Shown here: one piece after another, positions 42,647 to 64,000 of the stretch
Layout of the letters: the number at the start of each line of letters is the position of its first letter
How positions within the stretch are numbered: position 1 is the stretch's first letter
Assembly: GCF_002930155.1 (NCBI RefSeq)
Contig: NZ_PHND01000001.1
Location: 372,001 to 436,000, forward strand
Direction of reading: 5' to 3'
Source of the DNA: Entomoplasma ellychniae
GTDB taxonomy: Bacteria; Bacillota_I; Bacilli_A; Mycoplasmatales; Mycoplasmataceae
DNA: 64,000 nt
Translations under genes and position numbers: made by a program
The notes under the pieces: model-generated
What the model was told of the DNA's origin: nothing
Databases searched by the model: none
Seen by the model: only the letters and a program-made list of their open reading frames with translations

Positions 42647-42648
42647 AC

Positions 42649-43047: not shown

Positions 43048-43061
43048 GGAGAATAAAAGTA

Positions 43062-43223: not shown

Positions 43224-43245
43224 AAACTCGAAAGGAAAACTTATT

Positions 43246-43797: not shown

Positions 43798-43808
43798 GAA
43801 ATAACAAA

Positions 43809-44258: not shown

Positions 44259-44284
44259 AAAATTAAAAACTCGAAAGGAATAGT

Positions 44285-44443
44285 ATGTCAGATACTGAAA
44301 AAATAATAATTTGTGATCAATGTGGCAAAGAAAAAAGAGTAAATAAACCTTCAGTTTGAACAATAAACAACAATGTGTATTACTTCTGCACTAAAACTTG
44401 CAACACTAATTGAATTGTAGAAATATTTGAAAATGATGATTAA
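44285..44443 (+). CDS. Small zinc-ribbon-like protein, 52 residues
   Basis: CDQC followed by CTKTC: IIICDQCGKEKRVNKPS, then NNVYYFCTKTCNTNW. Starts 5 nt after CTCGAAAGGA. The second ICE zinc-ribbon gene; unlike the first beyond the Cys spacing. Confidence 0.55.
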
Positions 44444-44546
44444 TAAAAGCGTTAACCAAAATGAAAGAAATACCAAGCAAAACATTAAACCTTTAAACCT
44501 TTTAACAAAAGAAAAGTTTATTAAGCATATAGATTATATAATTTAA
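44433..44546 (+). CDS. Possible 37-residue ORF overlapping the previous gene
   Basis: Codes MMINKSVNQNERNTKQNIK, then PLNLLTKEKFIKHIDYII. It has no good ribosome site and may be chance, or coupled to the previous gene. Ends at the TATAAT upstream of the leader element. Confidence 0.2.
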   Translation: MMINKSVNQNERNTKQNIKPLNLLTKEKFIKHIDYII

Positions 44547-44629
44547 AACTTAATAAATTCCCGAAAGAAAGAGGGACATTCACAAATTGTGAGTGTTCTC
44601 TCTTTTTTATTTTAGAAAGTAGGTGTTAC
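44537..44629 (+). promoter_or_regulatory. ICE leader attenuator, copy A
   Basis: TATAAT (44537-44542) precedes the conserved leader CCCGAAAGAAAGAGGGA, then a hairpin of GGACATTCAC with GTGAGTGTTCTC, a T tract, and AGAAAGTAGGT before ATG. The hairpin differs from copies B and C at two pairs, both changes compensated (C-G for T-A, A-T for G-C). Looks like a terminator before the transfer-module genes. Confidence 0.7.
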
Positions 44630-44830
44630 ATGCCAAAACAACCAAAACCAAAAAAAATGTACACAACAATAAACCCAACAATTGAACAAAAAGAATTAAT
44701 AGATTCAATTCAAAGAAATTGTGCAGCTAAATTTAATAAAGACTTTAGCAAAACAGAAATAATTATGATAGCTGTAAAACGTTTAGTAAAAGAACCAATA
44801 AGTGAGGATGAGTTTGATGGAAAACAATAA
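44630..44830 (+). CDS. Small ICE protein, possible ribbon-helix-helix regulator
   Basis: 66 residues. KMYTTINPTIEQKELIDSIQ then KTEIIMIAVKRLVKE: a strand followed by two helices, as in CopG/MetJ-like proteins. First gene after leader copy A, overlapping the VirB4 gene start by 14 nt. Could autoregulate the transfer operon; this is inference. Confidence 0.45.
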   Translation: MPKQPKPKKMYTTINPTIEQKELIDSIQRNCAAKFNKDFSKTEIIMIAVKRLVKEPISEDEFDGKQ

Positions 44831-47669
44831 CAAAAAAAATTCAAAAGAATTAGTGGGTGTAATACCAAAACCTCCACAAAAAGCAGTTTTAAAATGAGGT
44901 ATTTTATGAACCGATTTGATAGCAACATTATTTGGTTTTGTAGTTGGTGTTTTAATAATTTTATCAATTCCAAATGTTTCAAGTCTGGTCTGAAATATTG
45001 TAATAAAAACAGTAATCATGATATGTGTTTTATTTATTTTAATGATACCTTTAATGCCTGTCCCATCTGCTGGTAATGGGGTAAGGATTTATCATATACT
45101 ATGATGAAGTGTTTCTTTTAAATACATTGATAAAAAAATATATAAATTAGAAGATAAAAATCATTCCACCAAAAAATTTAATTCTTATAAAAAAATAAAT
45201 TTTGATTCAAGCATCGAAGCAGCAAAAGATTTTTTAATTCTAACAAACGAAAATGAAACAGATAAATTGTTTATGTGTGGAATAAAGTTTGAGGGTAAAA
45301 ATATTTTTCAACAAGATTTAATAGATCTAGAAATGATGGCAAATAGTTGATGAGAGTTACTAGTCAATTCAAAATATGATTTACAAATTGTTAAATTGTC
45401 TGTTATGAGTAATAGAGATTTTAATAATCAACACATTTCAAATCTTTTATCTATAAATAATAAACTTTTTGAAACAGAAAAAATAAATATAATTCAGTAT
45501 GAAGCTAGAAGAAGAGTTTTAGAAGAATACACTAAAAAATATATTTATAAAAACGATATAAGTAGAGAAGATTTTATTGAAGAAAAATATCATATTATTG
45601 TTTATGCTGAAGATGAAAAAGAAATGATAACAGAGATTAATAGAATAACAGCTATACTAAATCAAAAAGGCTTATCTGGACAAAAAATGAGTTCATATGA
45701 AAACGTAAATTTAATTTATCAAAGTTACACACCATTAGCTGAACCCTTGTCTCCAACTTTAATTGAGAGTAATTCAGAAGATTTAACAAAATTCTTAGCG
45801 TTTAAAGAAATAGAATTTAAAAGAAATTGTTTTAAGGTGAATGGTCAAGAGCAATATTTCAAAGTTGCAGCTATCACAAAATTTCCAATGAAGGTCGAAC
45901 TTGGTTGAATGATTGGCTTATTTAGAAATTCCACTAGCGCTATTGTTACTATAAAAGAGAGCTTAATTAATGAAAACAAATTCTTAAGTAATAACTTAAT
46001 GAATTTACAAACAAATTCTCAAACAATAAATCAAACTAAAGTTGTCGATATAAAAGCAATGCAATATGAACAAGAGGTTTATTCTCAAATTGTTGCTGAT
46101 TTAGCAACAGGAACTGAAAAGCTAAAAGAAGTTAGTGCAACAGTAATTTTTTCAGGTAACAATGAAGATGAATTAAGAGAACAATCAAATTCATTAAAAT
46201 CTGAACTTCAAAAAATAGGAATTTACTTAAATGATCTAATAAATAGACAAATAGAAGCTTTAGAACATTTTTCATTAAAACCAAGAACCCCTTTAAAAAA
46301 ACAAATTTCAAGACAAATACCAACATGAACAATGGCTTTATCCTATCCTTTCATATCTCAAAAATTAAATGACAGAAGAGGGCTTTATTTAGGTGTTAGT
46401 GTTGTTGGTGACCAAATAATTTATGATCAATTCTTTTTACCTAGTGGTTTAACTACTTCACATAATTTATTACTTATTGGCATGGCTGGTTCAGGTAAAT
46501 CACACACAATTAAAAAATTAGCTATTTGAAATACTGTTAATCAAGTTCATACACATATTTTTGATATTGAAAATGAATATGCTCCACTTGCAAGAAATTT
46601 AGGTGAAAAAGTAGTACACGTTGGTACAAAAAATGGAGTAATTAATCCACTTCAAATAATGGCTACTCCAAATGATGAATTAACAAATAATTTATATGAT
46701 GATATGCAGTTTTATCTTACAAATTTAGAAGGTTGATTTAAATTGCTTTATCCTGATTTTAATGACTATCAAATAGGTTACTTGATTAAAGAAGTCGGAA
46801 CTCTTTATTTAAATACAACATCAATCAATAAAGCTTTAAAAAATAAATTATCTTTAGATGATTTAAAAACTAATGATTTCCCAATTATGTCAGACTTAAT
46901 AAGACTAATGGAATTAGAACTTAAAACAATAAGTTCTGATCAACAAATGCTTCATCAACAATGAATTTATAGTCTAAAACAAGATTTTGAGAACAATGGT
47001 AAATATGAATATTTGCTAAATAATCATTCAACTCTTGAAGTTGGTAATCATAGTTTAATAGTTTACAACATCAAATCAATCTTTGATACAAATAATCAAA
47101 AATTACAAAATGCTTTATTATATTTACTTTTTGCATATGTAACAAATAAATTTAACACTTTAAGAATTGAAAATGATATTAAATATGCTGAACTTGTTGC
47201 TAAATTTGAAGAAGAAAAAAATCCTTACCCAAATAAAGCTGCTTATGAACTTTTAGTTAAACAAACTTTACTAATTGATGAAGGGCATGAATTTATGAAA
47301 AATTCAGATGTTACTTTGGACTTTTTAAATTCATCAGTAAAACGTTTTAGAAAATATTATGCTGGATTAACTTTTTGTACTCAAGATGTAAAGGACTTTG
47401 TTAAAGATGGAGAAAGTTCTAAAAAAACTCAATCTATATTGACAAATACACCAGCAAGACTAATAATGCTTTGTAGCTCAAAGGGATTAGAAGATGTTGA
47501 GACTCTTTTTGCGCAAGATGGTGGTTTAACAACCGAAGAAAAAAAACACATATTAAATGCTGGTCAAGGAAGAGGAGTTTTTATGAAAAATAACAACAAT
47601 AGGCATCAAATTCAAATTGAACTAAATGATGTTGAAAAAGAAATAATAAGGAATAGAAATTATGATTAA
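44817..47669 (+). CDS. VirB4/TraE-type conjugation ATPase with N-terminal membrane part
   Basis: 950 residues. The type IV secretion ATPase that powers pilus or channel assembly. An N-terminal pair of helices (WTDLIATLFGFVVGVLIILS and IVIKTVIMICVLFILMIPLM, then GNGVRIYHILWW) resembles a fused VirB3/PrgI-like subunit. The C-terminal half has Walker A GMAGSGKS (555-562) and Walker B LLIDEGHE (Asp821-Glu822). TGA-Trp interrupts several stretches. Matches the TraE-like ATPase of mycoplasma ICEs. The fusion call is from helix position only. Confidence 0.9.
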
Positions 47670-47922
47670 AAGTGAATACATAAAAGACTTTTCATTTAGA
47701 ACTAATTTAACACAAAAACAATCTAAGAAAATCTTAGAAAGTGTTTATGTACATTTAATTGAAGTATTAATTGATCAACAAGAAGTTTTTACTCATATTG
47801 GTAAATTTTATATAGATCAGCAACACGTGCACAACCAATTTTATAAAGGGCAGCAAAAAATATTAAAAATTAAACTCAATAAAATAGAAAGGGGTTTGAT
47901 TAATGAGCGAAGTAAAAAATAA
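47662..47922 (+). CDS. HU-like DNA-binding protein
   Basis: 86 residues. The HU/IHF pattern: MIKSEYIKDFSFRTNLTQKQ, SKKILESVYVHLIEVLIDQQ (helices), then VFTHIGKFYIDQQHV with the G-x-F turn before the DNA-binding arm. The arm is shorter and lacks the proline at its tip, so this is a divergent member. Overlaps VirB4 by 8 nt and the next gene by 20 nt. May bend DNA at the relaxosome. Confidence 0.65.
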   Translation: MIKSEYIKDFSFRTNLTQKQSKKILESVYVHLIEVLIDQQEVFTHIGKFYIDQQHVHNQFYKGQQKILKIKLNKIERGLINERSKK

Positions 47923-48508
47923 TAAAATTGAAAATCCTATTCAAAATAAATCCTTACCTAAAAGAAACCACTTAAACATCAGATTCAATACTGATGAAGC
48001 GCAAGAAATAGTTTATGAATATGATAGATTTCTTGAACAAAAAATATTGGAACATAAAAACTCAAAAAAACGTACACCAAAACCAAAAACAAATGATTTT
48101 TATATAAGAGCTTTAATCAGGGGAATGAAATATGACTTATTTGATAATAAAACAGATGAAATTGCAAATATTGCAGCAAAAGCAGTCACTAAAGTAATTC
48201 AACAAAATAATCAAGAAATAACTGTTCGACAAAATTTGCAAACAGCTTTTATAGCTGGTAATATGGATTATCTTAAAGAATTATTAAATTACATTGTGCC
48301 AATATTACAAGGGTTAAATTATGAGTATTTTGATGCAACTATCGATAAAGAAACTGGGTTTATTAAAAATGATTTTTTTAAGACACCTGTTGGTTTTGAA
48401 AATCAAGAAATATCAACTCAAAACAAATGAAAAAACAAAATTAGAAAGGATTCAAGTAGCACAAATTTAAAGGATGTGTTATTTGGAAAGGGAAATGAAG
48501 ATGATTAA
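47903..48508 (+). CDS. Putative relaxosome accessory or regulator, 201 residues
   Basis: The N-terminal part (KRNHLNIRFNTDEAQEIVYE and NDFYIRALIRGMKYDLFD) resembles ribbon-helix-helix plasmid proteins. The second half is acidic with helices (NLQTAFIAGNMDYLKELLNYIV). No firm family. Overlaps the HU-like gene before it and the VirB2-like gene after it. Confidence 0.4.
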
Positions 48509-48842
48509 ATTTTTAATGTTATTAGCAGAAGCACCAGACTTTAAAGCGCCTGCAGATTACATCGGGGGAATTGTTTTGGCTGTAATAGGTGCTTTTGGAG
48601 GACTTGGGTTTATTGTTGCTGCTGGTGCTATGATTTGAATTTTAGTTCAAAAACAAATTGCTGCAGCAGCGGGTAATCAGAAAAAAAAGGATGAATGTAC
48701 AAAAAATTTAATAACTATTGTAATCGCGATGATTGTGTTAGGGATAGCTGTTCCATTATGTGGTGTTTTTGCAGCATCTTTAATCGGAACTGACATGGGT
48801 TTAACTAAGAGTGCATTAATTGTATTAAGCGTGGTGAGATAA
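48501..48842 (+). CDS. VirB2-like small membrane protein
   Basis: 113 residues with two hydrophobic helices: DYIGGIVLAVIGAFGGLGFI and LITIVIAMIVLGIAVPLCGVF, joined by a Lys-rich loop (NQKKKDECTKN). The N-terminal MIKFLMLLAEAPDFKAPA may be a short leader. Such two-helix proteins sit before VirB6-like genes in Gram-positive and mollicute conjugation systems and match VirB2/TrbC-type pilin or channel subunits. The identity is by position and topology. Confidence 0.5.
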
Positions 48843-50356
48843 TGACAATAAATTCAAAGTTAAAAGAAAATGATTTTTACAATTATAGAAAAGAAATTAA
48901 TTGGGCTTTAGTTATTTTGATAATTTCTGTTTCAATTTTATTTTTTACTTTTTATAAAACCACTTTATCTTTTGATGTTAATAATATAACAATTAAAAGG
49001 TTAGAGGATTTAAAAACGTTAGGTGATTTGCCTAATGTTCCACCTTTTGTGGTTGCATCACCTTATGTGGATTTTTCCGATGGTTTTTTTTGAGAGCCTT
49101 TGCCAAATGGTGGTTTTAGATTAATGGCAATAAATGAACTCGTTAAATTACCTGGAACTCTTAAAGCAGGTATGCCTGGCGGATGAGATCAACAAGCTTT
49201 TTTAAATAAATTAATTGAAATGTTAAAAGCTATGAATGAAGCCAAAAGTCAAAAATTAATCTTAACTTTGATAAGAATGATTGCATTGCCTATAATGTTT
49301 ATTAGCTACATAATTAATTACATTATTATTGGTTTTTCATCTGGTGGGATTAATCAACTAATCTTTGGTGGAGATCAGTTTGTTGTCGAAAATATTCCTG
49401 TTGCTTTTTGAATAATTTGTATATCAGTTCCTTTAGTATTAATTATAATATTTTTATTTCAAACAATTTCTATGGCAAACACAGACGATAAACGTTCACC
49501 ACAACAAAGACTTAAAGATGCAAGCATAGGTAGTTTTAAAACTGTAATCTATATATTTTGTATCCCTGTTGGGTTTTGAATAATCGGAACTGGATTAGAC
49601 TTAACCATTAGTTACATTTCTTTTGTAGTAGAAGGAAACCCTCAAGACAAATCTTTTGCATTTACAGACAATGTTTATAAATTATTATTCTTTGGATTAA
49701 ATCCAACAAGTAGTGGTGATTTTTTTGCAAGATATCCAGTCTTATTAGCTGTGCTTGGGGGGTCAGTGCCTGGTGGTCTTTGAAAATCTGAGACAATTGT
49801 TAAAGCCTTTACAGTTTGGGGTTTTATAGGATTAGCGATTGGTGGTTCTACCTTGATATTTTTGCTATCAATATTTGCTGCTTTAATTGAAAAAACATTT
49901 TGGTTATTTTTTAATTTTCTTATTTGTATTTATTATGCTTGTGCCTCTGCTTTTGATGGTGGAGCAAGAATGAAAATGACTAGAGAGAAGATAATTGCTA
50001 AAACTCTTTCAATAGCGATTATAACTTTGGGAATTAATTTAACATATACAGTTTCTGCCGGCATGCAGTCATTAATTAGCTTTCCACCAATAACAGGTCA
50101 AGCCGGTTACATAATTTTTGCTTTGATTATGGCAATAATCTCAATAGCTGTTCTAATGGGGGTTAAAAAAATTGCTGCTGAAGTGGAATCACAAATTGGT
50201 GAATATTCAAATTATTCAAGAATTGATCAAACAACAAAAAGTAATTTCCAAACTGGTTCTAAATTAGCTTCTAATGCGACTAAGACTGTTGGTGCTGTTA
50301 GCAAAGGACCTTTAGGAGCTGTTGGTTTAACCACAGGAGTGATTGGATCGGAATAA
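48842..50356 (+). CDS. VirB6-like ICE membrane protein
   Basis: 504 residues, about seven to eight membrane segments with a large N-terminal extracytosolic domain (residues about 42-120). The core TLIRMIALPIMFISYIINYI, SIGSFKTVIYIFCIPVGFWI, FWLFFNFLICIYYACASAF, KTLSIAIITLGINLTYTV is like the transmembrane ICE protein found next to VirB4 in mycoplasma ICEs (Mbov_0396-type). A hydrophilic tail of about 60 residues follows (IGEYSNYSRIDQTTKSNFQ). Its ATG overlaps the previous stop (TAATG). Confidence 0.75.
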
Positions 50357-50357
50357 A

Positions 50358-53300
50358 ATGTCTATGAAAAAAACACTAAATATTTTAATCATATTATTAT
50401 TTGCATTATTATCGATATTTAATATACATACTACATACTATGTATTTAATAAATCTGATTTATTAAATAACTATAACTATTCTTTAACAAATGAAAAATC
50501 TAATTACAATAATAATATAACTAATCCTATGTATCCAAATTTTAAATATATTTTAAATAACTCATATACAAAACACAGAGTTAATAGGATGAGAACAGGT
50601 TGAGGTTATCAAAAATACTTATCAGATATAAATTCAACATTTGATGAGGAAAGTTATGATAATGGAACAGCATCAAAAGAATATACAATTTTAAATTTAA
50701 ACACTTTGAATTATGCTAAAACTGTTGATGACTTTAAAAATAATTATAAAACTTTAGAATTGGAGATAATGCTGTCATATCTAATTTATAATAGTACAAA
50801 CGTAACATCATCAGCTAGTCCTGCTGTTATTGCTAAATTTGATTCAGAAGACTCATATAAATCAACAACTTTTTCATTAAATACAATTCAAAGCGATTAT
50901 ATATCAATTTTTTCAAAAAGAAATAATAGTTCTAACAACCATCAGGTTGAAATGTTTTATAAAACATCTTTTTCAGGAAATTATCTACAAATGAAAATTA
51001 AAACGTCTTCATATTTAGAATACAATAAAGGTTCAGCTTATGGGCATGGAGCTATGATTGGATTTAAACCTAAAAGTGTTTCCTTTAAGTCGAGTTATGA
51101 CTTAAATTCATTTAAAAAAACAATTATAAATAATGGCAAAAAAACAATTGAATATACATCATATACTGGTGCTGCTATAGATTCGGAAGAAAAGTTAAAA
51201 TCTAGTGATTTTCAAGGAGAATGAAATGAAAGCACTGGAACTTGACAATCTGGTAAAGAACCAAAACCAACAGGAAAAGCAAATAAGAGTGAAATTGAAA
51301 AACTTTTAAGAGAAAGAGCACCAACAACATTTGGTGATCAATGAAATTCATATAAACAATATGGAGTAACATTTGATTTATATAATTGAAATAATGTTGA
51401 TAACACAGTTGATACTGTTTTCATGCTTAATAATACAGAATTTGTTCGTTATACAACAAAAATTAACTTAAAAGTTGATCAAAGCTATTGAGATATGAGT
51501 TATTTGAAAAGATTAGAAATTTTGCCTGGAAAAGTTGTAGATTTAAATGACGTTAGCAAAACAATGAATGATGTTCCAGAGCTTATTCAAAAAGATGGTA
51601 AACAAACATTCATTTATCACAACACAGTAATTGTACAATTTGCTTCAAATTCTATTAACAAAAATGAACGATTGCTTGTAAATGGCGAAGATGCTGAAGT
51701 TTGAAGGAATGTCTTTGTAGCTACATTAACAGATGGTAGAAATGATGAAAGCTCAACAATGGAAGAAGACAACACTTATGAAATTGCAGTTGAAGTTGAT
51801 GGTAAATTAAAATTTAGTAGAACAATACAAATAAATTCACTAAATCCCAACGTTGACTTTAAATGAATGGGTTGAGATCCACAAAATACACCAGGTGATA
51901 AAAATAAATACGATCAATGAGTTTTAACACAACCTTTTATAAATGGTGAAAAAAATGAGTTATATGATCCTTATATAAATCCAGAAACTGGTGTGAGAAT
52001 TCAATCAATATTTGTTAATGAAAAACCTTTATCCAAACCCTTTTTAATTGATCCAAAAGATCGTTATGGACAATTGATTGGTGGAGATGTTCAAGATGAT
52101 CCTTTAAGGTGAGGATACTTTGCTGAAGCTTATGTTGTTAATAAGGGAATTAAATACTTGTATGATGATGAACAGTTAAAACAATTTTCTAAAATAGAAA
52201 GAGTTGAAATTGATCCAGTTACATTTCAAGAAGTTGGTTCAAAAACACAAGTGAAAATTAATAATGAAGTTCAATTTTCTAATCCAGGAACTTGGCATTA
52301 TATTTTTTATTTAAAAGATTTTGTAGATCAAAGTTCATGAGGTAGTAATTCTATCCATAATCCACCAATAAATAAAGATATTAGAGCAATACAAGGAACT
52401 GTTATTCATAAAATCATAACTTTAGATAGTGATGCTAAAAACTATAGACGTTTTTTAGATTTAGAATCTTCAAAAAAGAATTCTAAAATACATGAATGGT
52501 TTACAGTTACATCTGGTGGTCACTTAAGAAGTTTTATGATCGCAAACGCAATTATAACTTCAGCAGATGCTTTACAACTTATTAAATATGAGCAAATTGT
52601 AAAATATTGACGTCAATACGTTTCAGCTGCAATAAATGGCCATATGACTTATAACCCAGAAACTGATGATAGGTTAAATTTAAGCGATTGACAACCAATT
52701 TACTTTCCTATGAAGCAAACAGAGGAAATTGCTGCTAAAGCATATATAACAAGGAAAATAAAAGAGCAAATGTTTAGTTTTAAAGGCTCTGCCATAGAAA
52801 AAGATTATATTATTGAATCAACACAAGGGCATATTCCACTTAATGATATGGAATTAAGTAAATTTGTAAGTATAAGTGAAGATAACCCTATTGAACAACT
52901 AGATGTAACTGTAATAGCTACTCCTGAATCATTACTACTTGTTGGGAATCTAGAATTTCAAATAAACAATGACATAAAATATGATCCTGACCTTGAAATT
53001 AGTTTAAGCGATGTAAAATTTAAGACTCAAGAAGGTAATTTTAGTAACTGACCTGAAGAAAACAAAAAAGCATTTTTAGAAAATTATCTTTTAGGTTATG
53101 TTGGGCAAACTCTTGATCAATATAGAATAGCTAAGAATGAAACGTTAAAGCAAATTCCTGAAAAAGATAAAGATGGAAAACCAACAGGTAATTTTATTGA
53201 CAAACAAATCCCAGAATATAAATATGCAAAAGATTATGCAATTTTTATTGATGGTATGAAACTAGACATAACACAAGAACCCAATATTAATGAATATATT

Positions 53301-53615
53301 GATCAATTCTTGAATGTTGCTAAAAAACGTGTAATGTGAGTAAGAATAAATGCTGTTAGGGGCACAACTTTGTTAAGTGGTGCTACTAGTTATCAAGTAA
53401 TTAATGACCCTAAATCTAATGTTAAACCACCAATTAAACCACTTCCAGAAAAACCAGATCCTGAAATTCCTGGACCAGGAGGTGAAAAACCAAATAAAAA
53501 GCTATTTGGTGGAATCTGATGATTGGTTACAATACCAGCAATTGCTATAATAGCTATTACTTTATTTGCTGTAGTTAAGCGAAAAAGAAAATTAAAAGGC
53601 TATAAATTAAAATAA
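50358..53615 (+). CDS. Large exported ICE protein (Mbov_0399-like), adhesin-type
   Basis: 1085 residues. An N-terminal hydrophobic segment (LNILIILLFALLSIFNIHTT) and a C-terminal anchor (IWWLVTIPAIAIIAITLFAVV) with a basic end RKRKLKG show an outward protein of over 1000 residues, preceded by a Pro-rich stem (IKPLPEKPDPEIPGPGGE). About ten TGA-Trp codons. It sits after the VirB6-like gene, as the large surface protein does in mycoplasma ICEs. It may be the mating-pair contact protein. Family identity is inferred from position and topology. Confidence 0.7.
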
Positions 53616-53635
53616 AAGAAAGGCAGGTGAATAAA

Positions 53636-54136
53636 ATGTATTTTCCTAATAAAAATGATGAGTGGTACACATTGCCCTATGCGATTGAACCTATTTTAGA
53701 ATTTCTTAAACCAAACTCAAAAATATTATGCCCATTTGACACTATTGATTGCGAATATGTAAATGTTTTAAAAAAGGCAGGTCACAAGGTCAGTTATAGG
53801 CACATTAAAGACGGATTTGATTTTTTTGATTTGGAAAGTGGTGATGTTTTATCTTTTGATTACATCATTTCAAATCCACCTTACAGTTTAAGAAAACAAG
53901 TGTTTATCAAATTGGAAGAATTAAACAAACCATTCGCTATGTTAGTGCCTTTGGTATCAATAGCTTTAAAACCTATAAGAGAAAAAATACAAGACAAACA
54001 ATTGTTAATTTTTGACAAAAGAATTAAGTTTAAATCAAATGAGGGGTTAGTTTGCAAAAACCCACCATCTGAAACAGCATATATTTGCAAAAACATTTTA
54101 CCTAAACAAATTATCTTTAAAGAACTACTTTTTTAA
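53636..54136 (+). CDS. DNA N6-adenine methyltransferase (phage Dam-like)
   Basis: 166 residues. Catalytic motif SNPPYS (N-P-P-Y) at about 79-84; NDEWYTLPYAIEPIL near the start and a short PFDTIDC motif resemble small phage or plasmid Dam-like methyltransferases in which the SAM motif is not well kept. Likely protects the element from host restriction. ATG at 53636 is preferred (AGAAAGGCAGGT upstream, as in leader genes); a GTG at 53627 is possible. Confidence 0.7.
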   Translation: MYFPNKNDEWYTLPYAIEPILEFLKPNSKILCPFDTIDCEYVNVLKKAGHKVSYRHIKDGFDFFDLESGDVLSFDYIISNPPYSLRKQVFIKLEELNKPFAMLVPLVSIALKPIREKIQDKQLLIFDKRIKFKSNEGLVCKNPPSETAYICKNILPKQIIFKELLF

Positions 54137-54187
54137 TTTGAATGATATAATTGATTTACTTGTACTTATAAAATATTAGGAGGTTTT

Positions 54188-56644
54188 ATGAAAAATAGTG
54201 AATTAGAATTTTACTTACATAATTATTTGTTTAATGTTGTTAGTGATATGAAAAAAAGAAATTTGTACAAATATGATTGAAATGTTAATAAGTCTGATTT
54301 TGAAGAAATAAACTCAAAATTATCAACAGCATCAAAAAATCTTTCTAATTCTATCAATCCTTCTTTAGGAAAACCAGATTTAATATATTTTAATCCCGAG
54401 ACTAAGCTTTTAATTTTAGGAGAAATTAAAAACGATAAGAAAAAACACACATCTAATAAAATCGGAAAAATAACTGACCCAAAAATTTTTGCAACAGATG
54501 GAGTACTGCATTATATGAGTTTTTTTAAAGATTATGACGTATTTGGAATAGCTGCTTCAGGTTCTAAGGGTGATTACATAATTGATCAATTTTATTCAAA
54601 AAAAGATAGCCTCATTTTTGAACCCTTACCATCTCAAAGAATATTAAATGAGTTTGATTACGAGAATATTATAGCTGATGATTTGATTGATGAAAAAGTT
54701 GATAACCTAAGTGATGCAATTTCTTCTTTAAATAAGCTAATGGATGATAGTAAAATTTCTACAGAAAAAAGACCGATAATTACTGGTTCTATAATTTTTT
54801 CTTTAACGCATTTTAAGCAAATACAAACAGACATTGAAAAGCACAAGACTAATACAAGCAACATTAGTGGTTTACTAATTAGTTCTATAAAAACTAAAAT
54901 GTTAAATGTTTTGCCTGAAAATAAAAGAGACAAAAATATTGGAATTATTGATAGATTTTGTAATCTAATTGAATCATATTCAATAAATAATGAAATTTGA
55001 AAAAAAATTATTGATAACATAGATCAAAAATTAATGCCAATTATAAACAAAATGAAAAAAGAGTCTTATCATGATTTTTCTGGTGACATGTATAGAGTTT
55101 TACTGAGATACACATCGGGAGATGGAAAAATTTTAGGTCAAGTTTTAACTCCAAAACACATAGCAAATTTAATGATAGACCTAGCAGAATTAAAAAAAGA
55201 TGACTCTGTAATAGATCCTGCTTGTGGAACGGGAATTTTTTTAGTTAATTCTATGAATAAATTAATATCAATGGCTAAAAATGATGAAGAAATTGAGACA
55301 ATTAAAAGTAAAAAAATATACGGAATAGAGATATCTAAAGAAATGTTTTTTTTAACATTAGTGAATATGCTTATTAATGATGATGGTAAGACTAATATTT
55401 TTGTTGATGACGACAACCCCGAACCTAAAAAATCTGGAATTTTTAAATACGATAAAAAAGACTTTGTAGAAAATCCTAAAAAAGTTATAATGAATCCGCC
55501 TTATTTATCTCAGGATGAAATGTGAAAATTTATAAATAAATCTTTAACATTGGCAACAGAAAAAGTTGTAATAATTGTTTCAACTTCTATTTTTAAAGGA
55601 AATACTGATTTTAAAAGAGAGTTCTTGAAAAATAATTCGCTGATGGCTGTTATTAATATGCCAAACAATATTTTTCAAAACAAAAGTTCTTCTGGCGCAC
55701 AAGTTAAAACATCTATTCTTGTCGCTGATATAGGAAGGCCAAATTCTGAAAATTATCTTGGAACATATTTTTATGACCTTAAAGATGATGGTTTCATATC
55801 TAGCAAAAAACATGGTAGATACGATGGCATTAAAAAATGGTCACAAATTAAAAGTGATTTTTTAGAGAATTATAAAAATAGAAAAGAAATTTTAAATACA
55901 TCAATTAACATAAAGAACGTATCTGAAAATGATACATGAAATTTTAATTTCTATAATAAAATATCTTCTGAAGATTTTTTAAATTTGAATGATTATTTAT
56001 TTAATTTGTTTGAAGAAATAGTAAATAAGAATAACAATAAAGATAAATATAAAATTTATGATCATTTCTTAAACATAGACTCTGAATTAAAAGCTTATGA
56101 TATAAAAAAATATATTAAAAATTTTAAATTAAAGGAAACTTCAGCTAATGAGCATTTGGAAATTAAAAAAAATATTAATAATGCACTAAGAATTGAAAAA
56201 TATATAGATATCAAAGATGGAGATATCTCATATGTCGCTGCATCAAATTCTAGAAACGGTTGTAGAATAAGCAATATAAGAAATATATATAATGAATCTG
56301 TTTTGGATAATTTATTTACATGAAACACTCAAGGAGATGGGGGAGCAGGCCTAGCTTTCTTCCATCCTTATAAATTTATTGTAGCAAGCACATGCAAAGT
56401 TTTTGATTTGATAGACAAGACATTGAGTCTAGAGCACAAAATTTTTATTGCTTTTGCTATGAGCCTAGAACACAAAAATAGATATTTTGGATATTCAATA
56501 AGTGAAGGTGAGTTCAAAAATGGAACTTTAAAATTAACTTTACCTGTAAACAACAAAGAAGAACCAGATTGGAATTTAATTTATGAAATTATGGTTAATA
56601 ATCCTATATTTATTAAAATTAAAAAATATTTAAACTTATTTTAA
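54188..56644 (+). CDS. Type IIG-like restriction-modification enzyme
   Basis: 818 residues, single chain. N-terminal nuclease: GKPDLIYF...LLILGEIKN (Asp64, Glu79, Lys81, PD-ExK pattern). Then methyltransferase: SDGKILGQVLTP-like region, motif I DPACGTG (343-349) and NPPY (436-439). The last 200 residues (EHLEIKKNINNALRIEKYID...GDGGAGLAFFHPYKF) are a half-specificity domain like HsdS. So it carries cutting, methylating and target recognition together. AGGAGG before ATG. Lies between surface protein and relaxase as cargo, next to another methyltransferase. Specificity unknown. Confidence 0.88.
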
Positions 56645-56647
56645 AAT

Positions 56648-56677
56648 AAACCTTTTGAAAAATAAAAAGGTTTTTTT
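56648..56677 (+). terminator. Terminator after the type IIG gene
   Basis: AAACCTTTT and AAAAGGTTT pair around a 7-nt loop, with seven T following. Confidence 0.85.
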
Positions 56678-56750
56678 ATTGCTATTTTTTCATTGTTAAG
56701 GTTTTTTCAATTAAATCAATTATAATTTTATTGTACAACTAGTAACTAAA

Positions 56751-56823
56751 TATAATCCCGAAAGAAAGAGGGAGTATTCACATAAGTGAGTACTCCTTTT
56801 TCTAATTTAGAAAGCAGGTTCTA
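56751..56823 (+). promoter_or_regulatory. ICE leader attenuator, copy B
   Basis: TATAAT (56751-56756) then 64 nt (56756-56819) identical to copy C. The hairpin GGAGTATTCAC/GTGAGTACTCC (11 bp, one U-G pair, ATAA loop) and T tract make a strong intrinsic terminator, followed by AGAAAGCAGGT and the relaxase ATG. Transcripts of the mobilisation module must pass it. Confidence 0.75.
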
Positions 56824-58881
56824 ATGAATAGAAAACAAAATAACATTTTCAAAGTAATAAGATTTTATGATCCCAACAACTCAAAACAAAGATTGACAAA
56901 CTATTATCGCGGCAAAAAAGGTTCTAAAAATATTACTTATATCGATTACATAACAAGAAAACAAGCATGTATTTTAAAAGCACTTCCTGAAAAAGCTTTG
57001 CAAGAAAATAGAGAGTTAAATGAATTCATGTTAGAAAGCAGGAGTGAGTGAAGACAGAAATGATTAAACAAAGGAGTGAGTGAAGAATTTTTAAAAGCTA
57101 GTGAAAATATATTTGATGATGAAAAGTATTCAAAGTATGGTTGAAACTTTAAAACAAAATTATTTAATTCATTAAATGAAGCAGGCCATTTTCAAAATTC
57201 TGATTTTATAGCTAGAGAATCTACAATCTTTAATTTAACACAAGAAACTGAACAAGAAATGTTAAAAGAACTTTTGGAAATAGATAGAGAACGCTCAAGA
57301 AGACAAAAGAGTATTGAAGAATATAAAAAAGTGCAATGAGGAACTGGACTTTATACTAATCAGGCACATTTCAAAACTAAAGGTAGTTATATTTTTGGTG
57401 AGTTGTCAAAACAAGAAGTTCAAAATTTAAAAAATGAATTTTTAAATATGAGGAATAACAATGATAGGTTAATGTGAGATACTGTTTTATCTTTTGATAC
57501 AGAATTTGCTGAAGATAACAATATTTTGGTTCCTGAAGTAATTGGAAAACTCATAAGTAAAAATATTGATCAATTATTTATTGAAAACAATTTAGACCCT
57601 AAAAGAATGAGTTGGGGATTTTCTATGCATGGAAATACATCTAATCCACACGCTCATTTATTTTTTTATGAAAATGAACCTAACAGAAATGGTGAATGAA
57701 AATTCAAGGGAAATTTAAACCAAGAATCTATGAAGTATTTTTATCAAAGAATTGAATTAAATGCTCAAACTAATGAACTAAGTTACCAAAAAATGAGAGT
57801 TTTAGAATTAGAAACCAAAGCCTTAATTTCTGAAGAAATAAGTGGACAATTCTTTTTATCTAAACATCAACAATTCTTGATTCATAAACAAATTAAAAAA
57901 ATAGATGAATTAAGTTTAAAAATTAAAGATTTAGAACTTAATTTTAGAAAAAGATATTTATCTGAACAGCTAACTGTTAAAGAAAAACAAAATCATAATA
58001 AAAATATAAAATCAATGAAAAATAATTTAATTAATAACATAAATTTAATTCATGAAAGCCATTCTAAAAATAAACTAAAACAATTTTTTGAAAGAAGAAC
58101 TAATTTAACAGAAATTGAAAAGCAAATCGCAAAAAAGGTAGATTCCAATATGTTGTTTCTCAATAAAATTAACACTTGAGAAAAACTTAAATGTTCAATG
58201 GTAAAAACCCAAAAATTATTAAATCATGAACACATAAGTTGATTTGAAACAATGAAAACTTATAGAACTAAAAAGGGCTCAACATTAAGTTTTAACACAT
58301 TAAATGATGAAGGAAAGATCGAAGCTATATCATATGTTGAAAATATAATAAAGCAGTCTAAAAATGGTACGTTAATGCTTCAAAACATCCAAAGTAAAGT
58401 TGATGATATTTCGCATGAACTAACAAAAGTTCTTCTAAAGAAAATTGATGATAATGATACCAAAACCATTCAAACATTAAAAACAATAGATGCTCTCGAT
58501 AAATTAAATTTAAAAATAAATTCACAAAGTTTATATAATAATTTATCTGAAAATAATTTAACAAAAGAACAAAAAGAAACTTTAATTTTTAATGAAGTGA
58601 AAAACTCACTAATGAATGGCGAAAATGGTTATTATTCAAAACATGTTAATGTGTTATTTAATGAAATTTATAATCAAAATTTTCAACTAGGAATCAAAAA
58701 GGAATTCAAAGAAAATAAATTTTTGACTCAAAACGTCTCTAAAATATCTAATTCGATTAGCGATGCTTTTAAACTGGGTTCTAGACAAGCAGCATATGAA
58801 TTTGAAAATGAAATGAAAAGACTGAAAATGAAAGCTGAAAATGAAATTGAAAAATATGAAAGAGAAAGGATTAGGATATAA
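56824..58881 (+). CDS. MobL-type HUH relaxase candidate
   Basis: 685 residues. WGFSMHGNTSNPHAHLFF (His269, His276, His278) matches the three-His HUH motif of relaxases in the H-x-N-T-D-N-P-H-x-H form of the MobL group, preceded by the expected VLSFDTEF strand. Tyr-rich N-terminus (LTNYYRGKKGSKNITYIDY) could supply the nicking Tyr. The C-terminal half is a long coiled coil (residues about 330-685). Nicks DNA at oriT and pilots it to the VirD4 protein encoded downstream. No other relaxase is in the window. Confidence 0.7.
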
Positions 58882-58883
58882 AA

Positions 58884-59117
58884 ATGTTAATTCCAATATA
58901 TACTTTAATCTCTATTAATTTTTGTTTAATAGTTTGGCTTGTTATCGATTATTTTAAAAATTTAAAAAAATACCAAAAATTAATTAAAGAAAAACAGTTT
59001 GACACTATAAAAGTTTTAAAAAACAAAAAGAAAAAATCTAGAAAGACAATTTATTTATCTATGTCTTTTATATATATAGTATGTAGTGTTTTGTTAATTA
59101 TGAATGGAGGTTTTTAA
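58884..59117 (+). CDS. Small two-helix membrane protein
   Basis: 77 residues. MLIPIYTLISINFCLIVWLV, a Lys-rich loop (NKKKKSRK), and YLSMSFIYIVCSVLLIM. Starts 2 nt after the relaxase stop and ends directly before the VirD4 gene. Probably part of the channel. Family unknown. Confidence 0.55.
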   Translation: MLIPIYTLISINFCLIVWLVIDYFKNLKKYQKLIKEKQFDTIKVLKNKKKKSRKTIYLSMSFIYIVCSVLLIMNGGF

Positions 59118-61631
59118 ATGAAACTGCAATTATGAAATAAAATAATTAAAAGATTTTTCTTGTGACAATTATTATTGGCTATTCCAATAGCTATTTTAAT
59201 TTGATTTTGTATAACAGCATTACTTGGTGCTATGAGTTCTAAAACCCCTTTTAACTTATTTTTTGTGTTAACTGGAAAGTTTAATTTGATGTGACCTATT
59301 TTTATTGGAGTGATGATTTTTGTTTTGATGTTATTTTTAAATTGAGCATTAGCTATCACAATATATTCAAAATTTTGAAGAAGCGGGTATAGACAACATA
59401 TTGACACAAAAGATATAACAGCTAGTAAGTTAGTTATTGATGATCGAAATATTATTGATGATGAACCTAAATGAAAAACTCAAAATGGCTCTATTTATGA
59501 CATAAAGGTCAAACAATCAAAAGATTCTATGCAAAATTTTAATGAGAGTCTACAAATTGAATTAAACAAATTGAAATCAGGATTTGTTGTTCGCAATGTT
59601 TGAGATGCAAAAGCTAAAGTATTAAACACTTCAGCTGCAAGTGATGTTAATGGTTTTGTTCTTGGTGATCCTGGGTCAGGTAAAACTGCTGGAATTATCT
59701 TGCCAACAATAATTTATAACATTAAATTAAAAAATAAATCATCTATGATTATAAACGATCCAAAAGGAGAGTTATACCAAAAAACGTCCAAAACTTTTAT
59801 TGAAAATGGTTATGAAGTTAAAACCTTTAATTTGCAAGAACCAAATAAATCTGATGCATGAAATCCTCTGACTTCTATTTTTGAAATTTGACAAAAATAT
59901 TTACATCCAACAAGTGAAATTGACAATTCAAGAAAATTAGGTCAAGTTAGTGAACCAAAAGCAATGATACAATCCCATTGCAACTTAGCTAGGTGTTACA
60001 CGCACTTCTCGTTAAGTTGTAAAGAATGTATTGAAAACTTAGTGAATGACCACTACATCGAATCTAATCCAAACTGATATATAGGATTTATTAAAATAAC
60101 AAATGAAAATAAAAATGAAAGCTTCGATGTTTATTTTTCATCCCAAAGTGAGATGGAAAATTGAATTACTCAAGAAAAAAGAAAACTAAAGGGTGAAACT
60201 TTTGGTCAAATTGCTGAATTAGCAAGTTCTTTATATACTACTCCAGATCCGAAAAATGAATTCTTTTATTCTGCAGCTAGAGAATTTTTTGAAGGAACTT
60301 TACAATTTATGTTAGCCTTGAATGCTAAATATCCAAAAATGGTAACTATAGATAATTTTAACTTAAAATCAATTAGAAAAATTTTATCTAATAAAAACAA
60401 GTTTTTTGAAAAAATATCTCAACACTCATATGATGTAGAAAAAGCTCAAAAACTTTTAATAGAAATTAAAAACCAAAATAAGAGTTCAAAAAAAGTTCAA
60501 GAACTTGAAAGTTTTATTTCTAAAAATACATTGTCTGAAAATGACTGACAAACTAGATTAGCTGATGTTACAATTACATTTAAAAAAGACCCTGGTAATG
60601 TTGAAAATTGATGAAAGACATTAACTAATGATTTAATTATTTTTGACAACATTGAATTAGAAAACATAATCTGTCAGAATACAATAAACGTCGAAGACGC
60701 GATTAAAAAACCAACAGTTATATTTTTAATAGTGCCAGACAACAAAAAAGCCTATGTTTCACTTGTTTCACTATTTGTTGGGCAAATTTATGCAGAACTT
60801 ATTTCAATTGCTTCTAAACGTGCTAATTTGGCTCTTGAGCGTAAAGTTTTATTTATTCTTGAAGAATTTGGTTCAATGAATAAAATAGATCAGTTTATCT
60901 CAGCATTTTCAATTTGTAGAAGTAGAAATATAAATATTTTAATTTGTCTTCAAAAAGAAAGTCAATTGACTGAGAAATATGGAATAAACAATACCAAATC
61001 AATTTTAGGTAACTGTCAATTAAATTATTTTGTTTCTTCAACGGAGAGAGACGATTATGAAAAATACTCAAAATCTTTTGGGATAAGAGCAGAATTAAAA
61101 AGAAGCTACAATACTAGAGATAATGAAGCAAGTGAATCTTTAGATAAAACTGCTTTAATATCAGCAGATGAACTTCAACAATTACCAAAACCTTTAGTAG
61201 CTATTTTGTTAAATGATAAAAAATACATTTCATATTTATTACCTTCTTGAATTGGTGAAAACGAGTATATTGATTATTATGGTAAAAAAGTTTATGATCA
61301 CTCACCAATTGAAAACAATTTTATTAAAAAGAAAACTATGTTATATTCTGAAAAATATGAAATAGATTTGTGAAATGAATTAAAAAATATCATTAAGCAA
61401 ACAGAAGAACAACAAATTGGTAAAACAAAACCCGAAGTTAAAATAATGGTTGATGAAAATTCTAATATTACCAAAGTAAAAGAAATTCACGTTTTGGATG
61501 ATAGAAATTTAACAGAACTAATTGAACAGTTAAATGATTTAAGAAACCAAAATAATATAACACCTGAAATTAGACGTAAAATAGTAGAATTAAGAGCTGC
61601 TATAATAAAAAAACAACGCATTAATAATTAA
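59118..61631 (+). CDS. VirD4/TraG coupling protein
   Basis: 837 residues. Two N-terminal membrane helices, Walker A GDPGSGKT (183-190), INDPKGELY, Walker B LFILEEFGS (about 578-586) and C-terminal QLNYFVSS and YNTRDNEA, all as in TraG/VirD4. An insert (residues about 290-470) with a Cys pair region (CKECIEN) is unusual. It links the relaxosome to the secretion channel. TGA is Trp in many places. Ends RINN before a terminator. Confidence 0.93.
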
Positions 61632-61639
61632 GTAACTTT

Positions 61640-61663
61640 AAACACCAAATTTTGGTGTTTTTT
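61640..61663 (+). terminator. Terminator after the VirD4 gene
   Basis: AAACACCAAA and TTTGGTGTTT pair almost without loop, with six T following. Confidence 0.85.
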
Positions 61664-62044
61664 ATTTAAAAGTTTAATTTGTTTACAAAAATGTAAACAT
61701 TTTTTTATATTTGTAAACACTTTTTGTGTTAGGTTGTGATATTATTTATAAATAAATAATATTAAAAGCAGTTGTATTTTGAACTTTTGTTTACACCTCT
61801 TATCTTGCTTCCACCTTTTTACTCAAAAAATGAGCATGAAATGCTACATTTTTAGTAAAATCCATGGGATTTAAGGTGGTAATGGTGGGATAAAGGTAAG
61901 AATTATTAAAATTGTTTACAAATTTACTAAGAACAACTGAGCACCAATAAATATCAAAATGTATTAGATTTTGAATAAAATAAAGTATATAGTTAATTAT
62001 AGAAAGAGCTACTTTTAAAATATATGTAGCAAAGTGTGAAAAAT
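61664..62044 (+). other. Non-coding region, candidate origin of transfer
   Basis: No gene in about 380 nt. It contains five copies of TGTTTACA or its complement (61680, 61692, 61712, 61799, 61913), the first two as an inverted pair, and a large hairpin at 61816-61860, flanked by an imperfect inverted pair (CTTATCTTGCTTCCACC and GGTGGGATAAAGGTAAG). Such hairpins and repeats near relaxase and VirD4 genes are typical of oriT. It may equally be a regulatory region for the lipoprotein gene. Confidence 0.45.
61816..61860. repeat. Large inverted repeat
   Basis: TTTTACT pairs with AGTAAAA outside; AAAAATG and GCAT pair with ATGC and CATTTTT inside, loop GAA. About 20 bp with small bulges, no following T tract, so not an ordinary terminator. 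Confidence 0.7.
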
Positions 62045-62941
62045 ATGAAAAAAATTCTAAGTATTATTGCTGCATTTAGTTTAACTGTTACTTCAAGCTT
62101 TGCTGTTGTTGCTTGTAATAAACAAATTAAAATAGTAGACATAAAGAGATCTGTTAGTCATATTCAAAATAAGACTGATATAAATGAAGTTAACCAAGAG
62201 TTAATAAAAGTTAAAGTTGATGGTGTTAAAAAAATTGAGGCTTTTGAAATTGAAAATAATGAAACTGATGTAACAATAAAGATTAGTGTTGTCGAAGGCA
62301 GAAAAATTGATAGTGATAATTTTGTTTTGACTAAAGCTATAGCTGATAAAGCAATTGATAATCCAATTGTTCCAGATGGTGAATATGAAATGAGCTTTGA
62401 AGAATATATAAAAAACTTTTCAGTAACAACAGGTGCTGAACAAGAATTTCACGGTGATTGAAATATTGATTATTTTGATTTAACAAAAAACCAAGGTGAA
62501 TGATATGGTAAAACAAATAAAGAATTAAAGCAATGATACATTGATAATCAGAACTCTTTTTGAACTTGAGATAAAGCAATTGCACAATCTATTACAGGGC
62601 TTAGTACCAAATGATATGATTATTTTTTAGATAAAGATTTATTTCCAGAAGGTTTTGCTTTTATTGATAATTTATTAAATTTTGAATCGTCTGATTTCTT
62701 TGATACACCTAAATCCTTAGATACACCATCAATGCTAAACGGAAAACAAGTAACTGAAGTTGATGGATATTATGAAGTTTCTATGACTACTAAAGCAGTA
62801 AATTATTTAAAAGAAGCTAATCAAAAACAATTATTAAAAAATTTTAATATAGATAGTGAAGATAGTGAAACTGTTAATGAATTTAATGAAGGGTTTAATA
62901 TAGTTGGATCAATAAAAATAAATTTTATAATATTTAGATAA
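62045..62941 (+). CDS. ICE-encoded lipoprotein
   Basis: 298 residues. Signal MKKILSIIAAFSLTVTSSFA with lipobox VVAC, so lipid-anchored outside. The mature part is rich in Glu, Asn and Lys; IKIVDIKRSVSHIQNKT is similar to a repeat unit found in many Entomoplasmatales lipoproteins. Several TGA-Trp. A GTG three codons upstream is a less likely start. Role unknown; possibly surface exclusion or host contact. Confidence 0.75.
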
Positions 62942-63028
62942 AAAAACAACACAAGAACAATTTTATGTGTTAACATTAATTTATCAAAGAAAATTAAACT
63001 TTGAATTCAAGTCTCGCATGCAAATGCA

Positions 63029-63060
63029 GGAAAAAAGGAACCTTTTTGGTTCTTTTTTTG
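63029..63060 (+). terminator. Terminator after the lipoprotein gene
   Basis: GGAACC and GGTTC pair over a T loop with A and T tracts outside. Confidence 0.75.
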
Positions 63061-63097
63061 TATAATTCTAAATATAGGGTCTAATAATATTAAATAA

Positions 63098-63168
63098 TTC
63101 CCGAAAGAAAGAGGGAGTATTCACATAAGTGAGTACTCCTTTTTCTAATTTAGAAAGCAGGTAATTAA
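63098..63168 (+). promoter_or_regulatory. ICE leader attenuator, copy C
   Basis: Bases 63099-63162 are identical to 56756-56819 (64 nt): CCCGAAAGAAAGAGGGA, the 11-bp hairpin with ATAA loop, T tract, and AGAAAGCAGGT, then ATG. The upstream -10 is less clear (a TATAAT lies at 63061-63066). Confidence 0.75.
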
Positions 63169-63723
63169 ATGTTGAAGGAAAAAGAAATTTGATTAGGCTA
63201 TTCTGAAAGTCCAGGAGATTACTCTGATAATGATTTGAAATTAAAACACTGAAGACCACTTTTGATCACGAAAGTTTATTCTGGCACAAGTTTAATTAGA
63301 GTAACAGAAGCATCAACAAAATTGAAACAAAAATATATAATTGATGTAGTGTTAAGTTCTGGACAAGTTTTTCAATTTGATAAGGGTTCAAGTTACATAA
63401 TTGATGCTAAAAGTTTAAAACAAAAGTTGAAACCGCTTATTGGTCCCGCTTTTGATAAAAAGTATAAATATATAAAAAGATCGTCAAATTATTCGTTTAA
63501 TAAAATTAAAAATAAAGTTAATTTTGAAAAAATGATTTTATCAGGTGAGTATAATAACTTATCTACTGAAGAACAAGACAAACAAAGAATATGAAAACAA
63601 TTTTCTTTAGAAGAACAAGAAAATAGAATGATCAGAAAAATAGAAAGAGAAGAAAAGTTAAAATTAATGCAAGAAAATAAACAATTTCAAATTATTAAAA
63701 AAAGTAAGAGGCACAACCGATAG
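63169..63723 (+). CDS. ICE protein, possible PemK/MazF-like fold
   Basis: 184 residues. IWLGYSESPGDYSDNDLKLK, HWRPLLITKVYSGTSLIRVT and VLSSGQVFQFDKGSSYIIDA resemble the K-x-R-P-x-L-I core of PemK/MazF RNases, followed by a helical Lys/Glu-rich tail (EEQENRMIRKIEREEKLKLM). No antitoxin gene is seen next to it. Directly follows attenuator C. The fold call is weak. Confidence 0.4.
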
Positions 63724-63744
63724 TTTTAATAGAACTTTAACTAA

Positions 63745-63772
63745 ATTAACTACAAAGTATGTAGTTTTTTTG
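63745..63772 (+). terminator. Terminator before the transposase gene
   Basis: AACTACA and TGTAGTT pair around a short loop, then seven T. TATAAT at 63777-63782 is a likely -10 for the next gene. Confidence 0.8.
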
Positions 63773-63815
63773 TACTTATAATAAAATTGGTGTATTTATT
63801 AAAGGAGTGTTTTAT

Positions 63816-64000
63816 ATGTTATTTAACTGTCGAGAAGAATTTGCAAAAATTCTAAAAACAAAAAAACTTGAACTTGAAAGACTTGATTATGAATTGCTAA
63901 TAAAGAGAGATAAAAGAAGATATAAATTGATAAGGTTAGCTAAAAGATGTATTGTTAGTGAATTTGGATATTTAAAAATAAATAGAAGGGTTTATTTTGA
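63816..64000 (+). CDS. ISLre2-type transposase, N-terminal part
   Basis: The gene runs off the right edge; 61 complete codons are visible. LDYELLIKRDKRRYKLIRLA then IVSEFGYLKINRRVYF match the ISLre2 pattern (D-x-E-L-x-x-x-R-D-x-x-R-Y ... F-G-x-x-x-x-x-R-R-x-Y). DDE transposases of this type move mycoplasma ICEs, so it is probably the ICE recombinase, placed near the right end. AAAGGAG 9 nt upstream of ATG. Confidence 0.85.
   Translation, partial: MLFNCREEFAKILKTKKLELERLDYELLIKRDKRRYKLIRLAKRCIVSEFGYLKINRRVYF

Follow-up and report, generated by a model that had tools for sequence, protein, structure and literature searches.

Why should separate operons of one mobile element each begin with what looks like a transcription terminator? 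The question is raised by a stretch of 64,000 nucleotides (nt) from Entomoplasma ellychniae (NZ_PHND01000001.1, positions 372,001 to 436,000, forward strand; hereafter the window, to whose numbering coordinates refer unless a genome is named), in which an integrative and conjugative element (ICE) carries three related leaders, A, B and C, ahead of the VirB4 operon, the relaxase-VirD4 operon and an open reading frame (ORF) at 63169, respectively. We lean towards reading these leaders as a promoter-proximal termination regulon, which would be released by an element-specific antitermination event on the leader RNA.

The 17-mer CCCGAAAGAAAGAGGGA occurs exactly at 44560, 56757 and 63100, and a window search allowing up to 2 mismatches returned no further site (0.00 expected in shuffled sequence). 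Sequence comparison confirmed the first-pass annotation in that bases 56756-56819 equal bases 63099-63162 and that 44558-44629 is related to them: copy B (56756) matches copy C (63099) at every one of 64 nt, and copy A is a diverged relative. By in silico criteria each copy looks like an intrinsic terminator, with a stable hairpin followed by a U-tract. The leaders fold more stably than their shuffles (z = -5.9, -4.9 and -3.8), and among 75 terminator-like sites, found by a census of both window strands and having a median stem energy of -8.7 kcal/mol, the stem of A takes rank 1 and those of B and C joint rank 3 (Table 1). The sequence AGAAAG(C/T)AGGT and an ATG lie within ~20 nt 3′ of the T-tracts. 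With only ~20 nt between U-tract and start codon, the promoter must therefore sit upstream of the hairpin; a promoter between hairpin and start codon was rejected because this distance leaves no room. Predicted promoters and folds thus support the earlier claim that each of these separate ICE operons has a terminator-like leader between its likely promoter and its start codon. Two other roles were discarded: that of a mere insulator against upstream transcription, because the operon's own promoter would be stopped too, and that of a leader peptide (GTG..TAA, seen by eye) overlapping the 3′ arm of the hairpin, because it differs in copy A. Comparison of Rfam models with the window at the gathering score gave 0 matches. 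A further terminator-like hairpin with a T-run is present at 63034-63060, immediately 5′ of leader C.

That one switch might serve the separate operons, as first proposed, is still the best reading, and its main support is the recurrence of the same architecture in other mollicute ICEs; the sequence of the leader itself is not conserved. From the places with a relative of the relaxase (matched in 28 of 320 genomes) or of VirB4 (117 of 320) we took a selection, cut out up to 20 kb around each, and scanned these regions for a hairpin plus T-tract no more than 110 nt before an ORF, occurring at least twice per region. Repeated leaders were detected in 15 of 73 ICE-locus regions versus 0 of 22 chromosomal control regions. 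Four hits were then dropped, leaving 11 of 73: in locus L127 the hairpin lies in an apparently duplicated coding stretch, L158 scored at threshold, and in L169 and L178 (plasmid NZ_CP065192) like copies stand equidistant before like ORFs and were read as duplicated segments. A duplicate pair within L134 was also disregarded. All 11 retained regions belong to f1, the family of the window's element, in which the pattern was found in 11 of 26 regions versus 0 of 18 f1 controls (Fisher p = 0.0012; the 26 and the 18 were tallied by hand, and L140 and L141, flanks of contigs of genome G207, were left out). Control region L200 has a match to leader family Z, which in the DNA search extends over only 31 nt.

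Ten other ICE loci yielded 50 leaders (G184a 9, G153 4, G161 5, G208 6, G173 3, G176 5, G163 5, G184b 6, G192 5 and G207b 2, named after their host genomes), and later additions (G190 3, G195 3, G178 4 and 3 in a second G173 locus) brought the number of other loci to 14. With 2-10 copies per locus, these leaders stand before VirB4, relaxase, VirD4, VirB6-like and other genes, and every catalogued leader has a U-tract 3′ of its stem. Their sequences are unrelated to that of the window's leader. Seven sequence families were distinguished: X (G184a, G190 and G195), Y (G184b, G192 and G178), Z (G173, G176 and G163), G161, G208/G207b, G153 and the window's own. Family X leaders (L120, L274 and L276, from G184, G190 and G195) have a second terminator-like hairpin 3′ of the first, and in most of them a TTTTCCCTGGGGAAAA-type hairpin adjoins the ribosome site. 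Several dissimilar hairpins precede ORFs in G311.

The best predicted −10 box lay 11-20 nt 5′ of the hairpin in all 50 leaders of other ICEs, at a distance that was nearly constant within each family (for G153, where an internal TTTT had been taken as the U-tract in part of the analysis, spacing and pairing were corrected and the spacing is 11 nt). Since AT-rich DNA yields −10-like hexamers by chance, it is this constant spacing, and not the presence of a box, that counts as evidence. The boxes match the form of promoters mapped in Mesoplasma florum, for which excerpts of PMC7745072 give TAWAAT, a partly conserved TGN extension and no clear −35 box. In the window's element, the predicted distance from box to hairpin is 12-26 nt, compared with the 11-20 nt of other ICEs. 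With an assumed transcription start 7 nt downstream of the −10 box, stopped RNAs of 33-54 nt are predicted in other ICEs and of 39-59 nt for the window's leaders; at 33-54 nt, little space would remain for a leader peptide, a T-box or a riboswitch. When the other families were anchored on the box, majority identity was 0.53-0.61 at positions −30 to −11 versus 0.82-0.96 at +6 to +20. The window's copies, anchored on the six bases before CCC, gave 0.63 upstream and 1.0 downstream, and G208 alone was raised next to the box (0.86 at −10 to −4). As judged from these alignments, the conserved object is the predicted −10 box together with the transcribed leader.

Genome-wide searches placed these leaders relative to their elements. 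In host G184, 9 of 11 matches to the family X leader fall at 1095-1119 kb and 8 of 8 matches to the family Y leader at 229-260 kb, with a weak X match (75% identity) at 224.6 kb (224616), near the Y locus; this host carries two ICEs with two different leader families. The G208 leader has all 10 of its matches in G208 at 585-617 kb, and 6 matches in G207. The family Z leader has 11 matches in G163, 5 of them in the ICE locus, and 12 in G173, across several places. In the genome of the window, all nine matches to CCCGAAAGAAAGAGGGA (up to 2 mismatches) lie inside three copies of the ICE, three leaders per copy. Leaders are thus alike within an ICE and can be unrelated between ICEs of one host, as would be expected if the factor were encoded by the element; alternatively, leaders may have been copied locally from one another. 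Extra copies outside the studied loci were seen for X in G184 (224616, weak), G190, G192, G195 and G181, and for Z in G163 (five), G176 and G173. The sites of extra copies include contig C1 of G163 (380-387 kb, 483-485 kb and 525 kb), G176 (563 kb), G173 (59 kb and 438 kb), G192 (950 kb and 1010 kb) and contig C1 of G181 (616-621 kb).

Such copying is central to an explanation that dispenses with a regulator altogether, in which the leaders are passive attenuators whose inefficient termination holds expression at a constant low level, and whose copies were duplicated or gene-converted together with the promoter. The identity of copies B and C fits recent copying, and neither scans of proteins from the window's ICE nor the search with A1, a candidate partner described below, produced a regulator. 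Two observations nevertheless make this explanation unlikely: different leaders persist in the two ICEs of a single host, and conservation of the transcribed leader equals that of the −10 box, going beyond what a generic weak terminator would require, although local copying could also give either result.

A1, a small protein of the window's ICE, is a weak candidate for a partner of the leaders. Its relatives are 75-111 amino acids (aa) long, contain two Y/W-rich repeats and lie outside the leader operons in 8 of 12 assembled loci. A1 matched 25 of 320 genomes at E <= 0.001, 12 of them strongly; only matches with E < 1e-9 were counted, and many weak, short ones were set aside. Nine strong A1 places had played no part in leader discovery, and what they contain counts in favour of the recurring architecture: leaders are repeated at three of them, a lone leader of the respective lineage stands at four, and the other two, both in G161, are leaderless. 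The six without repeated leaders resemble remnants, with no more than two of six core ICE genes. Among ICE remnants, L272, L266, L264 and L270 retain the A1 gene and one leader, which is placed upstream of the relaxase gene (G192) or of VirD4 (G163 and G176). Control region L194 gave a weak A1 match, and Pfam comparison of A1 and other left-end proteins of the window's ICE gave sub-threshold matches only. The association between A1 and the leaders falls within one clade and could be simple linkage. The nearest relative of the window's ICE, that of G207 (loci L083 on contig C5 and L082 on contig C12), has the A1 gene, and its two upstream regions share a short ACATACTAC motif (by eye).

In most leader families, a stretch 3′ of the U-tract, here called segment 3, can re-pair with the 5′ arm of the terminator. 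This pairing was better than that of shuffled segment 3 (p < 0.05) in 36 of 37 leaders from G184a, G184b, G192, G153, G161, G208 and G207b, in 0 of 13 leaders from G173, G176 and G163, and in 0 of 3 of the window's leaders. Because segment 3 sits 3′ of the U-tract, refolding is possible only after read-through. In permutation tests on six families, cognate pairing exceeded exchanged pairing in X (0 of 5000), G161 (0.006), Y (0.03) and G208/G207b (0.035), and was not favoured in G153 (1.0, with a mis-set U-tract) or Z (0.80); shared ancestry inflates the values of X, Y and G208/G207b, and the five G161 copies sit in one ICE.

These features also bear on whether the leaders act as DNA. They could be operators, that is, inverted repeats 3′ of the promoter bound by an ICE-encoded repressor, with an incidental RNA fold; the repeats are indeed palindromes placed where the transcribed part begins, and small proteins resembling ribbon-helix-helix proteins (by eye) are encoded in the ICE. 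A DNA operator would account neither for a U-tract after every catalogued stem, nor for G-U pairs within the stems (54 of 776 pairs, a count in which the G153 stems were mis-cut), nor for re-pairing with a segment beyond the U-tract, which is an RNA feature, and we regard this explanation as distinctly improbable. We give slightly less weight again to the idea that the hairpins are 5′ structures that protect the mRNA or tune its translation, with termination playing a minor part. The hairpins are near the ribosome site, the 5′ end can be refolded by segment 3 once read-through has occurred, and family X has its extra hairpin beside the ribosome site, but strong stems immediately followed by U-tracts, among the strongest terminator-like sites of the window, argue for termination. 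That the stopped leaders are small RNAs acting in trans on read-through mRNAs via segment 3, with feedback between operons, is hardly credible: segment 3 is complementary to the terminator 5′ arm in 36 of the 37 leaders of families that have it and cognate pairing is favoured in 4 of 6 families tested, but pairing in cis is possible and should outcompete pairing in trans, and the window's leaders and family Z are without segment 3.

Two expectations about the window's own leader sequence were not borne out. The first-pass annotation had described two compensated changes of base pairs in the hairpin of copy A; read by eye against B and C, one pair is altered on both sides (U-A to C-G) and another is lost to a bulge. 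When arms were exchanged in silico, the 5′ arm of A with the 3′ arm of B folded at -16.4 versus about -22 kcal/mol, and the 5′ arm of B with the 3′ arm of A at -22.2 kcal/mol; the latter exchange costs nothing because G-U pairs rescue the fold, whereas the reverse costs ~6 kcal/mol. As only two distinct leader sequences exist, covariation statistics are impossible, and the evidence from covariation is thin. The other expectation was conservation of the leader in related ICEs, the absence of which had been named in advance as a reason to abandon the proposal. No relative was found among the 320 genomes of the order: CCCGAAAGAAAGAGGGA at up to 2 mismatches matched 12 of them, with the leader in its own genome only, and when the assembled loci and 16 control regions were searched with a profile of the leader, nothing but the three copies of the window's ICE was retrieved. 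Exact copies of CCCGAAAGAAAGAGGGA occur in 27 genome-contig stretches (~30 expected by chance, estimated from the size of the collection) and in 4 viral-contig stretches, none with the leader hairpin; one stretch (L115, Nitrospirota) combines a T-run with a strong fold whose sequence is different. No relative of the sequence was thus found elsewhere, and it is the architecture that is conserved.

Returning to the termination regulon, RNA polymerase would start at the −10-type promoter just 5′ of each leader and, by default, would stop at the U-tract after a few dozen nt, so that transcripts of the type IV secretion system, the relaxase and the gene at 63169 would be incomplete. A single element-specific antitermination event on the nascent leader would then release all operons of that ICE together; the factor would most likely be an ICE-encoded RNA-binding protein, a trans-acting RNA being less likely. 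We infer termination in vivo, its relief and the element-encoded factor from the sequences. Default termination with joint release explains why the leader is repeated, where it stands, why its transcribed part is conserved and why leaders diverge between ICEs. A wider generalization is tenable but more tentative: the ICEs of this clade may each run their transfer genes as an antitermination regulon, with a private copy of an RNA switch at every operon and a fast-evolving ICE-encoded factor that recognises it, coresident ICEs being switched independently, with refolding upon read-through in most lineages. If so, that refolding would give the switch a second step of its own, by which the on state might be locked or translation tuned.

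Several observations weigh against such a regulon. No regulator was identified in scans of some proteins of the window's ICE, which included no dedicated search for Q or AlpA; the AlphaFold model of A1, computed for the protein alone, was unusable (mean predicted local distance difference test score, pLDDT, 51.6), and the search for A1 came up empty in two family Y loci, G184b and G192. In the window, the −10 boxes are unequally spaced from the hairpin (B 12, C 21 and A 26 nt), and in these searches the leader had no sequence relative outside its own genome. Even in the nearest ICE (G207; VirB4 67% and relaxase 44% identical), the scan detected no repeated leader, although it covered the available contigs only and the relaxase gene of G207 is on a separate contig with 535 bases upstream. 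The pattern is confined to one family, as the 45 regions outside f1 gave three hits, all dropped as duplications. Lone, non-repeated hairpins with T-tracts occur 21-26 nt before VirB4 in G313, G311 and G166 (L121, L124 and L125), and therefore a hairpin near VirB4 is not special by itself. Finally, G163, G173, G190 and G192 carry many leader copies outside the ICE loci studied, some of them in remnants.

The layout has partial counterparts in known systems. Q antitermination concerns an operon kept shut by an intrinsic terminator placed after its promoter, and transcription of the operon has to wait for a dedicated factor. The ICE leaders share with Q and AlpA a terminator shortly after the predicted promoter. 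The remaining comparisons refer to excerpts of the papers cited. AlpA also acts on a promoter followed by an intrinsic terminator and reads a DNA element between −35 and −10 (PMC9371919), whereas the ICE leaders are conserved from the −10 box into the transcribed part, and several operons carry the unit; a conserved DNA site 5′ of the −10 box, as for AlpA, was not found in any family (majority identity 0.53-0.63 at −30 to −11). In Tn916, canT is one cis-acting region of 452 bp that controls one long transcript by termination and antitermination (PMC11658703). The mollicute elements would be similar in that ICE genes are shut by intrinsic terminators and opened, as proposed here, by antitermination, but each of the operons concerned has a copy of a short terminator unit at a predicted promoter of its own, and no long cis RNA of the canT type was found between predicted promoter and terminator, the predicted stopped RNA being 33-54 nt (39-59 nt in the window). 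Conjugation genes likewise lie behind terminators in pLS20-type plasmids, where the dedicated conAn antitermination system, made up of the ConAn1 protein and the conAn2 RNA, stands at the head of a single long operon (PMC8955417), unlike the several separate promoter-terminator units of mollicute ICEs. SAS/ESAS of Cluster K mycobacteriophages are pre-start repeats with inverted repeats, whose role is undescribed (PMC3203893); they resemble the leaders in standing before many start codons of one genome and in an inverted-repeat consensus that differs between subclusters, but the excerpts describe no terminator U-tract or promoter unit for them. ICEA of Mycoplasma agalactiae is of the same element class as the window's ICE, with a VirB4 of the Mbov_0397 family and a DDE transposase, and the excerpts describe no leader regulon for it; insertions in its non-coding regions abolish transfer, for a reason that study left unexplained (PMC6030558). 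Searches of open-access titles and abstracts, a scope outside which most subscription papers fall, likewise showed nothing on leader termination or antitermination in mollicute ICEs, in agreement with the earlier statement that no described regulator of this kind was known.

The architecture is real and unusually clear, and it makes a new regulatory layout plausible, the mechanism of which we infer. A repeated leader regulon would be a concrete and testable switch for the transfer genes of mollicute ICEs in near-minimal cells. It would explain how the operons of an element could be induced jointly while those of a coresident element are not, would extend the termination-antitermination control of conjugation known from Tn916 and pLS20 to a different layout, and, through the turnover of leaders between ICEs, would let the coevolution of regulator and leader be followed.

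Table 1. Leaders, predicted promoters and genes of the ICE in the window.
Feature	Position	Strand	Basis or remark
ICE within the window	41703..64000	+	right end ~1.2 kb past the window
A1 protein, 94 aa, two repeats; weak candidate partner	42362..42646	+	not behind a leader
Leader A candidate −10 box TATAAT	44537..44542	+	prediction; 26 nt 5′ of hairpin
Leader A, before small ORF and VirB4 operon	44558..44629	+	sequence, fold
Leader A hairpin and T-tract	44565..44611	+	fold; -21.6 kcal/mol
66-aa ORF, ribbon-helix-helix-like by eye	44630..44830	+	no family match above cut-off
VirB4-type ATPase, Mbov_0397 ICE family	44802..47669	+	NF045975 777.5 bits, cut-off 590
Mbov_0396-type ICE membrane protein	48842..50356	+	NF045889 95.5 bits, cut-off 70
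Type IIG restriction-methylase-like gene (defence-like), end of block behind leader A	54188..56644	+	PADLOC 7.4e-54
Leader B candidate −10 box TATAAT	56751..56756	+	prediction; 12 nt 5′ of hairpin
Leader B, before relaxase-VirD4 operon	56756..56823	+	sequence, fold
Leader B hairpin and T-tract	56768..56801	+	fold; -18.5 kcal/mol
Relaxase, MobP-like but under curated cut-off	56824..58881	+	
VirD4-type coupling protein	59118..61631	+	PF02534 122.5 bits
Leader C weak candidate −10 box TAATAT	63085..63090	+	prediction; 21 nt 5′ of hairpin
Leader C, before ORF 63169; first 64 nt equal leader B	63099..63168	+	sequence, fold
Leader C hairpin and T-tract	63111..63144	+	fold; -18.5 kcal/mol
184-aa ORF behind leader C	63169..63723	+	no assigned function

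As judged by its predicted Mbov_0397 VirB4, Mbov_0396-type protein, DDE transposase and terminal inverted repeats, the element is a mollicute ICE. The transposase is of the UPF0236 type (PF06782, 71.9 bits, cut-off 24.3). Within-genome comparison revealed a unit of 23.5 kb present in three copies in the same 900-kb genome (C1:346662-370164, 413703-437205 and 16860-40375), at least 99.98% identical, with the ends GGGCGTATAAC and GTTATGCACCC and a 9-bp target duplication (read by eye). The 9-bp flanks TTACAATAT / TTTAATTAA are exchanged between two of the copies (by eye), as expected for a chromosomal inversion through recombination between two oppositely oriented copies. The ICE also carries another defence-like gene, a PDC-M11B candidate at 42649-43023 (PADLOC 2.9e-36).

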